Positions 29,885-33,435 of a stretch of 64,000 nt of DNA are shown here, piece after piece (position 1 is the first letter of the stretch; each line of letters starts with the position of its first letter). A model generated the notes under the pieces. It worked only from the letters and a program-made list of their open reading frames with translations. It had not been told where the DNA came from and searched no databases. This DNA is from Desulfocapsa sp. GTDB lineage: Bacteria > Desulfobacterota > Desulfobulbia > Desulfobulbales > Desulfocapsaceae. Where the stretch lies: positions 1-64,000 of the forward strand of contig JAFLJS010000057.1 in the NCBI GenBank assembly GCA_022712895.1. Reading direction: 5' to 3'. The translations under genes were made by a program, and so were the position numbers.

Positions 29885-30223
29885 AATCACAACGGCCTCA
29901 CCCAAGTTTGTATTCAGGAACCCGAAATCACAGCCACATCACTTATTTTTTTGACACATGAGGCGATACTTTCTCGAACCATCAGTTTCTTCAAAAATCC
30001 ATCAATACTTAACAATAGTGCTTTTTCTCAGAAAATGGTACCGCTATATCCTGCCATATCTAGGGGCTATGAGAGTGGCCGATTATTGACAAGTAGAAAC
30101 CGATGCGAGGCACGAGCGTAGACATTTGACAGTAACAAGTCACGCCCCTTGTGCAACATAGTACTTCCTTCATCAGTTCATTATACATTTGCAGATTCTA
30201 TCAGTCATTCGTATGATAGAATC
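29885..30223. other. Intergenic region between nth-xth and ygiQ
   Basis: About 340 bp between divergent genes. It includes scattered TTGACA hexamers near 29949, 30087 and 30126, none with a good -10. A 10-bp inverted repeat abuts the ygiQ start and is listed separately. No gene or RNA is recognised. Confidence 0.5.
30194..30223 (+). promoter_or_regulatory. Inverted repeat abutting the ygiQ start codon
   Basis: GATTCTATCA (30194-30203) and TGATAGAATC (30214-30223) are perfect complements with a 10-nt loop, ending one base before the ATG at 30224. It occupies the place of the ribosome-binding site, and no Shine-Dalgarno is visible. It could be an operator or an mRNA hairpin limiting initiation. 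Confidence 0.45.
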
Positions 30224-31987
30224 ATGAAAAAAAACAATCCCCACATTCCACTACCAGTAAACATACAAGAATGTAAAGTCCGTGGCTGGCAGCAACTGGA
30301 CATCATCCTTGTCACCGGCGACGCTTATGTGGATCACCCATCATTTGGGGTGGCTCTGATCGGCAGACTTCTGGAAAGTAAAGGCTACAAAGTTGCCATT
30401 CTGGCACAGCCTCGTTACGACAACAATAAAGACTTCAAACAGTTTGGCAAACCACGCCTATTCTGGGGCATTACCGGCGGCAATCTTGACTCAATCGTTG
30501 CAAATTATACAGGAAACGGAAAAGTCCGTGATAAAGACGCTTATTCGCCGGATGGCAATCCTTGGCGTGGAAAAACTAGAGATAAAAACAATAGGCGCAG
30601 GCCTGATCGTGCGTCCATGCTCTATACTAACCTTGCCAGAGCGGCATTTAAGGATGTTCCCGTAGTACTGGGTGGCGTTGAAGCTTCCCTTCGCCGTTTC
30701 GTTCATTATGATTACAAACAGGGTAAACTCAGGGGGTCACTGTTGAGTGATGCCAAGGCTGATATTATCGTGTATGGCATGGGTGAGCGCGCCATCGTTG
30801 AAATTGCAGGACGATTGAGCAATGGACAGGACTTACACAACATTGCCGGGACCTGCGAACGTTTAAGCGGCAAAGCATTCGAGGAGCGTTTTGATACCGA
30901 AGAACAGCAAAACATCCTCCTTCCTTCCTGGAATGCGATTCAGAAAGAGAAAGGACTCTTTTTGGATGCCGAAAAAAAAGTGGATGCACAGGCAAGAAGT
31001 TACGCAGATAAAACACTGATTCAGCATCAGCAAAGTGCTTGGATTATTCAGCATCCGCAACCTGCGCAACTGAGTAGCAAAGAGATGGACGCTCTTTACG
31101 AACTACCTTATACAAGAGAAGAACATCCCGCATTCCCCAATGTTCCGGCCGCCAGAATGATCCAGCATTCCATAACCACAGTACGTGGCTGTTGTGGCAA
31201 CTGCTCTTTTTGTGCAATCACCAGACATCAGGGACCTGCAATTACTAGTCGTAGCCAGGAATCTTTAGTCCGGGAAATAACTGCTTTGAGCAAAATGAAG
31301 CACTTCACTGGCACCATTAGTGACCTTGGTGGCCCCACGGCCAATCTTTTTGCTGTATCCTGTCGTATTGGCTCCTGTCAAAAACATGACTGCCTGTATC
31401 CTAACGTGTGTAAAAACCTACAAATCGATGAACAGGCCTTCCTCTCTCTCCTGCGCAAAATTTCTTCGTTGCCAAACGTGCAGCACGTTTTTATTGCCTC
31501 CGGATTGCGTTTGGAACTTCTCCGCAAAACACCAAAACTATTTAAACAAATCATACGTTCTCATACGCCAGGTGCACTTAAAATAGCACCAGAACACACA
31601 GAAAAAGAAGTACTGGACTGTATGCATAAAGAGTCCCACGAGCAGCTGAAAGAACTGCTCAAACTTGGCCGTACTTTCGCCAGGGAACTCAAAAAAAATA
31701 TTCAGTTTACTCCCTATATCATTTCAGCCCATCCCGGTTGCACAGCCTCGCACACTTCGAATATGGCAAAAACACTTCAGCAACTTGGGCTGGAATTACG
31801 ACAGTTTCAGGATTTCACCCCTACCCCAGGAACGCTGGCCACGGCGATGTATGTTACCGGATTGCACAGAGATACGGGAAAACCCATCTATGTAGCAAGA
31901 GACAAGAATGAACGCATGAAGCAACGACGAATTTTAGAGAGGCTCCTCCCGGGCCAAAAGAAAAAACAAAAAAAAGGCCGGTCATGA
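30224..31987 (+). CDS. YgiQ family radical SAM protein
   Basis: A 587-residue UPF0313/YgiQ protein. It has the N-terminal LVTGDAYVDHPSFG, VVLGGVEASLRRFVHYDY and the radical-SAM cluster motif RGCCGNCSFCAI (C-x3-C-x2-C), with a C-terminal extension ending in a Lys-rich tail. Function of the family is unknown; the N-terminal part resembles B12-binding folds. The start at ATG 30224 matches the family N-terminus; an in-frame TTG at 30149 would add 25 unsupported residues. The tail overlaps a bidirectional terminator. Confidence 0.9.
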   Translation: MKKNNPHIPLPVNIQECKVRGWQQLDIILVTGDAYVDHPSFGVALIGRLLESKGYKVAILAQPRYDNNKDFKQFGKPRLFWGITGGNLDSIVANYTGNGKVRDKDAYSPDGNPWRGKTRDKNNRRRPDRASMLYTNLARAAFKDVPVVLGGVEASLRRFVHYDYKQGKLRGSLLSDAKADIIVYGMGERAIVEIAGRLSNGQDLHNIAGTCERLSGKAFEERFDTEEQQNILLPSWNAIQKEKGLFLDAEKKVDAQARSYADKTLIQHQQSAWIIQHPQPAQLSSKEMDALYELPYTREEHPAFPNVPAARMIQHSITTVRGCCGNCSFCAITRHQGPAITSRSQESLVREITALSKMKHFTGTISDLGGPTANLFAVSCRIGSCQKHDCLYPNVCKNLQIDEQAFLSLLRKISSLPNVQHVFIASGLRLELLRKTPKLFKQIIRSHTPGALKIAPEHTEKEVLDCMHKESHEQLKELLKLGRTFARELKKNIQFTPYIISAHPGCTASHTSNMAKTLQQLGLELRQFQDFTPTPGTLATAMYVTGLHRDTGKPIYVARDKNERMKQRRILERLLPGQKKKQKKGRS

Positions 31988-32006
31988 CAGAGTCACAACC
32001 GACCTT
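31964..32006 (-). terminator. Terminator of the selenoprotein gene, overlapping the ygiQ 3' end
   Basis: On the minus strand AAGGTCGGT (32006-31998) pairs with ACCGGCCTT (31982-31974) through one wobble pair, extended inwards by further pairs around a CTCTG loop, and is followed by a run of eight T. It lies about 40 bp after the UAA of the selenoprotein candidate. The T-run is the poly-Lys codon stretch of ygiQ on the other strand. Confidence 0.75.
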
Positions 32007-32024
32007 CTCTACTTCAACAACAAT

Positions 32025-32040
32025 AAGTGCGACCGCACTT
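32025..32040 (-). promoter_or_regulatory. SECIS-like hairpin 3 (beyond the stop codon)
   Basis: In the transcript AAGUGC-GGUC-GCACUU forms a perfect 6-bp stem with GGU in the loop, starting 15 nt after the third in-frame UGA and after the UAA stop. Being outside the coding sequence, its conservation in position and shape cannot come from protein constraint. Confidence 0.75.
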
Positions 32041-32045
32041 AGGTA

Positions 32046-32402
32046 TTAACCACTTCAGCCACTGGAAGCTGGATTTTTCTTAGTATCGTCATGGGCGCTA
32101 CCTGCGCCATCTTTGCTTCCGCCTCAGCCACTGCCAGCAGGATCATCTTTCTTATTCATTTTCTTTTTGAGCTTATCGGCAGCCTCATCAATCTTACCAT
32201 CTGCCGCTCCACCCATACCGACTTTTTCTTTTGCTGTGCCAGCGGCTCCATCAATCACTTTGTCCGTAGCGCTACCTGCGCTATCTTTTGTGCCACCTCA
32301 GCCGCTTGTCCCGGTTTCACTTGCAACAGCGATATTTCCGCTGGCAAGCAGACCCACGACACCGACTCCGACAAGGATCTTTTTCAGTTCCTTTGTATCC
32401 AT
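32046..32402 (-). CDS. Putative exported selenoprotein with three in-frame UGA (Sec) codons
   Basis: A 118-codon frame from ATG (GGGAG 8 bp upstream) to UAA that is open except for UGA at codons 35, 93 and 116 (32298-32300, 32124-32126, 32055-32057). Residues 1-28 look like a signal peptide (KKILVGVGVVGLLASG, then AVAS). Each UGA sits in Ser-Gly-UGA-Gly/Ser-Gly. The two segments SGUGGTKDSAGSATD (33-47) and SGUGGSKDGAGSAHD (91-105) are clearly repeats of each other, so coding continues across the UGAs. The middle is rich in Ala, Gly and Lys and probably helical. Every UGA is followed by a stem-loop with a GGU loop 15-30 nt downstream, as in bacterial SECIS elements. I know of no named family. 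Inference: periplasmic or surface protein with three selenocysteines, possibly for redox or metal/oxyanion binding. A conventional annotation would miss or truncate it. Confidence 0.82.
32094..32108 (-). promoter_or_regulatory. SECIS-like hairpin 2
   Basis: GGCGC-AGGUA-GCGCC, a 5-bp stem at nt 16-30 after the second UGA. It has the same loop and spacing as hairpin 1, but the closing pair is G-C instead of A-U, a compensatory change. Confidence 0.75.
32268..32282 (-). promoter_or_regulatory. SECIS-like hairpin 1
   Basis: AGCGC-AGGUA-GCGCU, a 5-bp stem at nt 16-30 after the first in-frame UGA, with GGU exposed in the loop as expected for SelB recognition in bacteria. Confidence 0.75.
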
Positions 32403-32443
32403 GGTTAAATCTCCCAAGTAAAAAACACGCTTCTTTCCCAATG

Positions 32444-32481
32444 AAAAAAACGCTCAAAACACAGCGAGTTCTCACTGTGTT
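32444..32481 (-). terminator. Terminator-like hairpin in the selenoprotein leader
   Basis: On the minus strand AACACAGTGAG (32481-32471) pairs with CTCGCTGTGTT (32468-32458) with one wobble pair, followed by TTTTGAGCGTTTTTTT. It sits between a consensus-like promoter and the selenoprotein start, so it may be an attenuator; alternatively it terminates the upstream efp-epmA operon. Confidence 0.6.
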
Positions 32482-32499
32482 CTTTTAACGATAATGAAT

Positions 32500-32527
32500 A
32501 TTATCATACTTTAACGTCTATTGTCAA
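32500..32527 (-). promoter_or_regulatory. Sigma-70-type promoter upstream of the selenoprotein gene
   Basis: Minus strand TTGACA (32527-32522), a 16-bp spacer and GATAAT (32505-32500), about 100 bp upstream of the ATG. The region is very AT-rich, and the promoter begins 24 bp after the epmA stop. Confidence 0.55.
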
Positions 32528-32550
32528 AAGGATTATGTTTTATTTTCCTC

Positions 32551-33435
32551 TTACATATCGAGTTCTTCAGGAGGGAATGGGACAATTTCCTGTAAATTGC
32601 TACTGCCTGCAAAAAGCATCAAGAGCCTATCAAGTCCCATGGCAATTCCAGCCGCTTCATCAAGTTGCCCAAGGGATGTCAAAAACTGTTCTGGCATTGT
32701 TTGATGCCCGCATCCCATTGCAGAATATTCTGCCAGGAATCGCTCACGCTGGATTTTCGGATCTGTCAATTCAGAGAATCCATTGGCTAACTCCACACCT
32801 TCAATATACAGTTCAAATCGTTCAGCCAGTTCAGGCTCTTCTCTTTTCTGTCTGGCCAGAGAAGCCAGTTCAAGGGGGTAATCGTAGAGAAATGTCGGGC
32901 ACGTCCTCCCCAATTGTGGTTCCACATCTTCAACCAGTAATTCATCAAAGCAATCCCTTTGCAAAGCCTCACCAGCAGACAAGGAACTGTACTTAGTAAA
33001 TGCGTCTCCAACCGTCAGATATTCCCAGGGTTGGTCTACGTTCAGTGGAAAACTATGATTTGTAAGTGTTACGCACAGAAAACGTATCAATTGTTCACAA
33101 TCACGCATGAGCTCTATATAATCGGCGTCTTTACGATACCATTCAAGCATCACGAATTCTTCAAGGTGTAATCGTCCACGCTCACCATAACGAAAACAGC
33201 GACAAACCTGATAGATCTGTTCACAACCGCCGATTGCCAGCAAGCGTTTCATATACAATTCAGGGGAAGACTGGAGAAAACAATCACTACTGGGGATATG
33301 GGAAATATTCTGCTCAGGGATAACCAGTGGCTGACGGATGGGAGTATCCACCTCAAGAAAGGCATGGCTGTCAAAAAAGGAACGAACTTCCCGAAAAAAG
33401 GCTGCACGAAAATGCAGCCCTTTTAGGTCAAGCAT
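32551..33435 (-). CDS. epmA: EF-P lysine ligase EpmA (PoxA/GenX)
   Basis: A 294-residue class II lysyl-tRNA synthetase paralogue lacking the anticodon-binding domain, the hallmark of EpmA. It shows FLQSSPELYMKRLL, IYQVCRCFRYGERGRLHLEEF (motif 2 region) and GMGLDRLL-like motif 3 (AMGLDRLLMLFAG). It attaches beta-lysine to EF-P. It lies 6 bp downstream of efp. EpmB, the lysine aminomutase that supplies the substrate, is not in the window. Confidence 0.94.
   Translation of the reverse strand: MLDLKGLHFRAAFFREVRSFFDSHAFLEVDTPIRQPLVIPEQNISHIPSSDCFLQSSPELYMKRLLAIGGCEQIYQVCRCFRYGERGRLHLEEFVMLEWYRKDADYIELMRDCEQLIRFLCVTLTNHSFPLNVDQPWEYLTVGDAFTKYSSLSAGEALQRDCFDELLVEDVEPQLGRTCPTFLYDYPLELASLARQKREEPELAERFELYIEGVELANGFSELTDPKIQRERFLAEYSAMGCGHQTMPEQFLTSLGQLDEAAGIAMGLDRLLMLFAGSSNLQEIVPFPPEELDM

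Follow-up and report, generated by a model that had tools for sequence, protein, structure and literature searches.

Between positions 32046 and 32402 of the 64,000-nucleotide Desulfocapsa sequence analysed here (the window; G000:C75:1-64000, from an assembly of 3.68 Mb in 75 contigs), a minus-strand reading frame is interrupted by three in-frame TGA codons. The locus raises the question of whether such an apparently broken frame is a gene and, if so, how its UGA codons are read and what its product might do. The original prediction, made from the letters alone, took it for a probable novel exported protein containing three selenocysteines.

The frame and its family

Reading the strand from 32402 to 32046 reproduced the predicted frame (Table 1), with in-frame TGA only at the three codons listed, a GGGAG motif 8 nt upstream of the ATG, and Ser-Gly-UGA-Gly/Ser-Gly contexts (SGUGG at codons 35 and 93, SGUSG at codon 116). 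The residues following the first two UGAs form a near-repeat, as described (GGTKDSAGSATD after UGA35 and GGSKDGAGSAHD after UGA93). Protein sequence as its sole cause did not hold, since codons +6 and +10 after these UGAs tend to pair in an RNA hairpin, which accounts for the repeat at least partly. Within the window UGA is otherwise a normal stop, as TGA terminates 15 of 41 non-overlapping frames of at least 200 aa.

Table 1. Features of the sbtA locus (window coordinates)
Feature	Position	Strand	Details and basis
sbtA precursor frame	32046..32402	minus	118 aa; ATG at 32402; UGA codons 35, 93, 116; TAA stop at 32046-32048
Leader, signal-peptide-like N-terminus, residues 1-26	32325..32402	minus	TIGR04081 match; Lys-rich start, hydrophobic stretch, AxA by eye
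UGA codon 35, predicted Sec	32298..32300	minus	frame reading and hairpin
UGA codon 93, predicted Sec	32124..32126	minus	frame reading and hairpin
UGA codon 116, predicted Sec	32055..32057	minus	frame reading and hairpin
Predicted SECIS hairpin 1	32267..32283	minus	UAGCGC[AGGUA]GCGCUA; 6-bp stem, AGGUA loop 20 nt past UGA35; MFE -9.6 kcal/mol/48 nt
Predicted SECIS hairpin 2	32094..32108	minus	GGCGC[AGGUA]GCGCC; 5-bp stem, AGGUA loop 20 nt past UGA93; MFE -10.6 kcal/mol/48 nt
Predicted SECIS hairpin 3	32024..32041	minus	UAAGUGC[GGUC]GCACUUA; 7-bp stem, GGUC loop 20 nt past UGA116; MFE -10.2 kcal/mol/48 nt
Terminator-like inverted repeat followed by T run	31968..32006	minus	by eye; overlaps 3' end of convergent ygiQ frame

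The predicted signal-peptide start was recovered as a signal-peptide-like leader, and this leader places the peptide in a known, though little-studied, family. Residues 1-25 matched NCBIfam TIGR04081, the 'SbtA family thio(seleno)oxazole RiPP natural product precursor', at 32.5 bits; the margin over the cut-off of 30.5 is just 2 bits, which counts against the assignment, and in a scan of the genome the same gene scored 35.2 bits. Five database relatives were retrieved at E<=10 (P0002-P0006), all of which exceed the TIGR04081 cut-off and carry PF27804 as a precomputed annotation. A Pfam scan of the window protein gave no match above cut-off, PF27804 being absent from the scan, and an Rfam scan of 31500-33000 gave six matches at E<=10, every one under its gathering score. 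Judged by its leader, the window peptide is thus a member of TIGR04081 rather than of a new family, and the claim of novelty falls. In the accessible text of PMC13188914, a table lists SbtA among prokaryotic selenoprotein families with the motif SGUG and the name selenobacteriocin; the SbtA/SbtM system could be traced to Lewis et al. 2021 through the accessible portions of PMC13188914, PMC11002830 and PMC12668002.

The expectation that gene callers would mishandle this type of frame was borne out by four of the five database relatives: P0006 stops at the first UGA position, while P0002, P0003 and P0004 carry tryptophan at the UGA positions. From residue 20 on, P0002 equals the protein of genome G016 with W replacing U, so certain pipelines translate these UGAs as tryptophan. 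The fifth, P0005, has cysteine in the first slot and stops at a later S-G. Genes of the sbtA type are therefore easily overlooked or mistranslated. Relatives bearing selenocysteine codons and relatives bearing cysteine, both sought on the strength of the original prediction, were found. Cysteine occupies an S-G-type slot beyond residue 28 in 20 of the 109 frames read; SSGUGAKPGAGG of G070, for example, aligns with SSGCGAKPGAGG of G080, which has cysteine at the U position. G085 and G093 carry cysteine and no U, as do loci L173, L180, L200 and L204.

Upstream of sbtA lies a promoter-like sequence, TTGACA-18-TAATAT, at 32490-32527 on the minus strand, and in the 5' UTRs of genus members an inverted repeat resembling CCTTTTC...GGGGAAAAGG was seen by eye about 45 nt before the ATG. 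Regulation by Fur was considered and rejected: a Fur-like palindrome over the sbtA promoter matches 15 of 19 positions of the Fur consensus, yet 16 genus mates score 10-13/19, so the palindrome is not conserved. Scores of at least 14 occurred in 21 of 2900 shuffled upstream regions.

Selection, hairpins and the reading of the UGA codons

In a protein search, 28 of 96 genomes (the host included) matched the sbtA protein at E<=0.001, and the best-matched stretch contains TGA in all of them except G093 and G017, where a contig end cuts it. Paired with G006, G016 and G019, its three nearest relatives, the sequence after UGA35 gave dN/dS values of 0.20, 0.17 and 0.17; between UGA35 and UGA93, with the hairpin codons excluded, the values were 0.16, 0.09 and 0.15. 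Comparisons with four further genus members gave 0.19-0.36 after UGA35, or a pN/pS of 0.39 where dS was saturated. The leader itself is under weaker constraint (dN/dS 0.51 against G006), which counts against reading the gene as a Sec precursor. The sequence 3' of UGA35 is under purifying selection, and the sbtA frame is genuine, beyond chance.

A hairpin stands behind each of the three in-frame UGAs of sbtA, its loop opening at a distance of exactly 20 nt in every case (Table 1). According to the accessible text of PMC13188914, bacterial SECIS elements have G within the first two positions of the loop, a spacing of 16-37 nt and an MFE of at most -7.5 kcal/mol, and the three window hairpins lie within these limits. 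Hairpin 3 lies wholly past the UAA, so the coding constraint of the sbtA frame offers no explanation for it. A rule-conforming hairpin follows 57 of the 2424 TGA trinucleotides in the window, and stands at exactly 20 nt in 12; three of those 12 are the sbtA UGAs. The z-scores of the hairpins are modest (-1.38, -0.55 and -1.16), and the stability of each taken singly is not unusual, which counts against the assignment.

The pairing is preserved across relatives. A strict hairpin (5 or more Watson-Crick pairs in the stem, a G among the first two bases of the loop, loop at 14-26 nt) was present in 199 of 275 distinct UGA windows from relatives, some of which are true stops, compared with 2.1% of shuffles (1152/55000). 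With a fixed register and no selection of windows, 85.0% of cells were paired in the internal hairpins of the host's own genus (n=49 windows), against a permuted mean of 70.6 and maximum of 74.5 and slid controls of 17.3-53.7%, and double changes occurred at five of six pairs. When the 210 internal windows were pooled, some of them with UGA stops, the figure was 77.2% (permuted maximum 60.2, slid 27.0-46.5). Terminal hairpins of the genus gave a weaker result, with 81.0% paired (n=14) against a permuted maximum of 78.6% and slid values of 23.8-48.8. In 102 of the 210 windows, codons +6 and +10 are exact reverse complements of each other (permutation mean 15.2, maximum 29, 2000 rounds), a complementarity that makes the residue pairs D/V, G/A, G/T, S/A and S/T co-occur. 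Relatives retain the UGA hairpins via compensatory changes. Counted against this picture, the hairpin rules overlook some relatives' UGAs, such as G003 U89 and G008 U54.

The host genes for selenocysteine that the original prediction had asked for are all there: tRNA-Sec (77.3 bits, gathering score 47), SelB (384.3 bits, cut-off 242.25), SelA (613.5 bits, cut-off 267.9) and SelD (372.8 bits, cut-off 125), the last of which itself contains a single in-frame TGA. Among relatives the set is not always complete. No selA match at E<=1e-60 was found in 13 of the 96 genomes, five of which encode SbtM (G009, G019, G024, G031 and G080). In G019 (72% complete) a selA fragment appeared only under a looser limit; in the other four, selA was still undetected at E<=0.001, a point counted against the selenocysteine reading; in each of these four, selB and tRNA-Sec exceed their cut-offs and sbtA bears hairpins. 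The absence of selA may reflect loss, another route from Ser to Sec, or an assembly gap. A selA of 627.7 bits is present in G054, which belongs to the genus of G031. The sbtM of G009 is split between frames, its N-terminal portion being out of register with what follows (L235, G009:C1:1318500-1321600), and this fits a decaying pathway in that genome; in G024 and G031 the sbtM frames are long.

How else might these UGAs be read? Decoding as tryptophan, whether through an altered code or near-cognate readthrough, would agree with the W residues in P0002, P0003 and P0004. This reading is scarcely credible given the ordinary use of UGA as a stop in the window, the complete host Sec gene set and hairpins that covary at a fixed spacing. 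Moreover, cysteine fills an S-G-type slot in the frames noted above, whereas none of 21 tryptophans does (counted in the first 170 residues of the 109 frames, many of them beyond the likely stop). It is also very improbable that the gene encodes only a 34-residue leader peptide, with UGA35 a true stop and the remainder decayed or acting as RNA alone. The ending of P0006 at its first UGA and the weak z-scores of individual hairpins would suit such a gene; the low dN/dS from UGA35 to UGA93 with hairpin codons set aside, and the homologues that maintain the frame beyond several UGAs, speak against it. The reading of UGA as selenocysteine is thus strongly supported by the comparisons made here: hairpins at 20 nt, covariation, purifying selection, cysteine homologues and host Sec genes all agree with the three selenocysteines proposed. 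An apparently broken frame becomes a well-supported tri-selenocysteine RiPP precursor, which is real and probably functional.

Maturase and predicted selenocysteine number

The host encodes one SbtM above the TIGR04082 cut-off of 350 (664.7-664.8 bits), on contig C53, separate from that of sbtA; its six closest named relatives are Desulfocapsa records with 70-76% identity. The radical-SAM gene beside sbtA in the window (30149-31987, plus strand) was considered as the maturase and rejected, as it is YgiQ (TIGR03904, 679.6 bits). Across the 96 genomes, SbtA was over cut-off in 49 and SbtM in 48, with both in 47, neither in 46 and one alone in three (Fisher test, p = 1.7e-23, a value that overstates independence because the genomes are related). 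The exceptions are G012 (81% complete) and G083 (84%), which lack an SbtM match, and G087, whose SbtM stands at a contig start.

Linkage of the two genes differs between the host's own genus and the other genomes. Outside the genus, 26 of the 31 SbtM genes whose genome also has an SbtA lie on the same strand within 3 kb of it, the other five being on different contigs. Within it, none of 16 sbtA-SbtM pairs does, a finding counted against the assignment: in G009 one contig carries both genes at a distance of 604 kb, and the remaining pairs are on separate contigs. As the co-occurrence holds, linkage was treated as usual rather than defining. The sbtA genes of the genus lie downstream of efp-epmA and face ygiQ; among 25 loci, which include loci from outside the genus, short loci and two genomes entered twice, epmA was present in 14, efp in 12 and ygiQ in 10. 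At one locus (L039:672-1529), an XdhC-like gene (164.1 bits, cut-off 350) is convergent with sbtM and overlaps its end.

Leaders of the sbtA type were found in 53 of 80 named loci (57 matches; 80 loci kept of 89 found), and 52 of the 53 SbtA matches over cut-off were read, G065:C171 being left out. After removal of repeated sequences and of G017 with its contig end, 103 precursors remained. A UGA was counted as Sec when a stem of 5 bp or more, in which one G-U pair was allowed, came after it with the loop at 15-37 nt. Predicted Sec residues per precursor were 0 (18 precursors), 1 (9), 2 (30), 3 (29), 4 (12), 5 (4) and 6 (1), numbers to be read with the knowledge that the rule errs in both directions and that some zero or low counts stem from UGAs with an overlooked stem. 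Four to six predicted Sec were thus counted in 17 of the 103, where the fifth of G016 may be a stop. Culturable members with an sbtA locus include Malonomonas rubra DSM 5091 (L205, five U) and Desulfospira joergensenii DSM 10085 (L208). For comparison, a 2026 review covers 119 prokaryotic selenoprotein families, most with one Sec and a small subset with two or three (PMC13188914, accessible text).

Counted by eye, the UGA called as the stop in 20 of the 38 precursors where the rule made such a call lies 6 or 9 nt downstream of one read as Sec; the loop shared by each such pair is then only 9-14 nt from the stop UGA. The distance from UGA to loop appears, we infer, to part Sec from stop, and UGA pairs 6 or 9 nt apart on one hairpin are natural tests of the SECIS distance. 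Separately, a single hairpin is common to two UGAs spaced by 12-15 nt in G030 (U36/U40), G065:C68 (U37/U41) and G070 (U34/U39), standing 17-20 nt from one and 29-32 nt from the other; G080 has Cys at the near position and keeps UGA at the far one alone.

Product, role and comparison with known systems

In the accessible text of PMC11002830, SbtM acted in vitro on peptides containing Cys and on peptides containing Sec with the loss of four hydrogens, and NMR identified its Cys product as a thiooxazole; the accessible part of PMC10470005 holds nothing on SbtM. The modified Sbt peptide is grouped with 5-thiooxazole compounds by its absorbance at about 305 nm (PMC12668002, in the portion available). 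Host SelB and tRNA-Sec are predicted to decode the three sbtA UGAs as selenocysteine with one hairpin each at 20 nt. By analogy with the in vitro results published for a different SbtM, the host enzyme, encoded on another contig, would turn the Ser-Gly-Sec sites into selenooxazoles, and the peptide would then likely be exported by its signal-peptide-like leader. We consider it very probable that the window gene encodes an SbtA precursor of this kind, with UGA-encoded Sec, SbtM-made selenooxazoles and likely export. The plain redox role of the original prediction is less likely than that of a radical-SAM-modified RiPP precursor.

What such a peptide might do is a more tentative matter. SbtM's thiooxazole chemistry, together with leaders resembling the signal peptides of MNIO-modified peptides, favours an exported soft-metal-binding peptide of the envelope. 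MNIO-made thiooxazole peptides bind copper and carry Sec-pathway signal peptides, which is unusual among RiPPs (PMC12452194, accessible text). By this analogy a soft-metal role, of the metal-binding kind that the original prediction also named, is possible, and it is held at that level because of the lack of a widely recurring neighbour, the lack of a conserved regulator site and the review's name selenobacteriocin. If SbtA peptides bind metals, they would amount to a selenium-based form of a strategy known for handling copper.

There is close to an even chance that, instead of binding metal, the same molecule acts as a bacteriocin, stores selenium or serves as a redox-active peptide of the envelope. 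The family carries the name selenobacteriocin in the PMC13188914 table (accessible text), Sec-rich repeats are able to store selenium, and no metal-handling gene family recurs widely near sbtM. The neighbourhoods do not favour these roles either: when frames of at least 100 aa were clustered, sbtM was present in 78 of the 80 named loci and no other family among the top 16 clusters in more than 11, smaller genes such as those for immunity proteins being uncounted. Named by eye, the 11-locus family is GGDEF-like, a permease-like family occurs in 4 loci, and an ABC-ATPase-like family, a possible exporter, in 7 of 80 only. A lipobox-like motif, present in 31 of the 103 precursors, would anchor the product, unlike a released bacteriocin; the window protein has an AxA site, noted by eye.

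A broader and more doubtful proposal, which we put forward as speculation, would see in each SbtA precursor a series of UGA-hairpin units in tandem, with as many as six UGAs per gene, that yields an exported, membrane-anchored or periplasmic poly-selenooxazole peptide. Such peptides would rank with the most Sec-rich bacterial proteins and be selenium-based, radical-SAM-made equivalents of the thiooxazole peptides that bind copper. A ruler of about 20 nt would operate in these arrays, one hairpin recoding one UGA while a second UGA 6 or 9 nt on still stops translation.

In the literature searched, with bioRxiv and most subscription papers outside its scope, no paper on a multi-Sec SbtA was found, and among titles on selenocysteine in Desulfocapsa none names the peptide. 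Three features are new as far as searched: precursors with as many as six UGA-hairpin units, a hairpin that falls in the 3' UTR, and a genus whose precursor and maturase genes were never found linked. The interest of the locus lies in this Sec-array architecture and not in the novelty of its family.

The window gene resembles the SbtA/SbtM system in its leader, its SG-U-G/S motif, its SECIS-like hairpins after UGA and the radical-SAM/SPASM maturase encoded in the genome. It differs from the SbtA representative in the accessible text of PMC13188914, which has two Sec, in its three predicted Sec, and from the usual arrangement in the unlinked precursor and maturase of its genus and in a third hairpin located in the 3' UTR. 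Bufferins, oxazolin and captophorins, the MNIO-modified peptides described in the accessible portions of PMC12452194 and PMC12668002, resemble SbtA in their signal-peptide precursors, Cys motifs and thiooxazole product. MNIO peptides depend on a multinuclear iron enzyme and Cys, whereas SbtA would employ a radical-SAM enzyme and Sec, and copper binding is reported for the former (bufferins, captophorins) and not for SbtA. Finally, the hairpins are like bacterial SECIS elements in having G in the first two loop positions and spacing and MFE within the limits, and unlike the standard element in being arranged in tandem, one per UGA, with the last lying past the stop codon.
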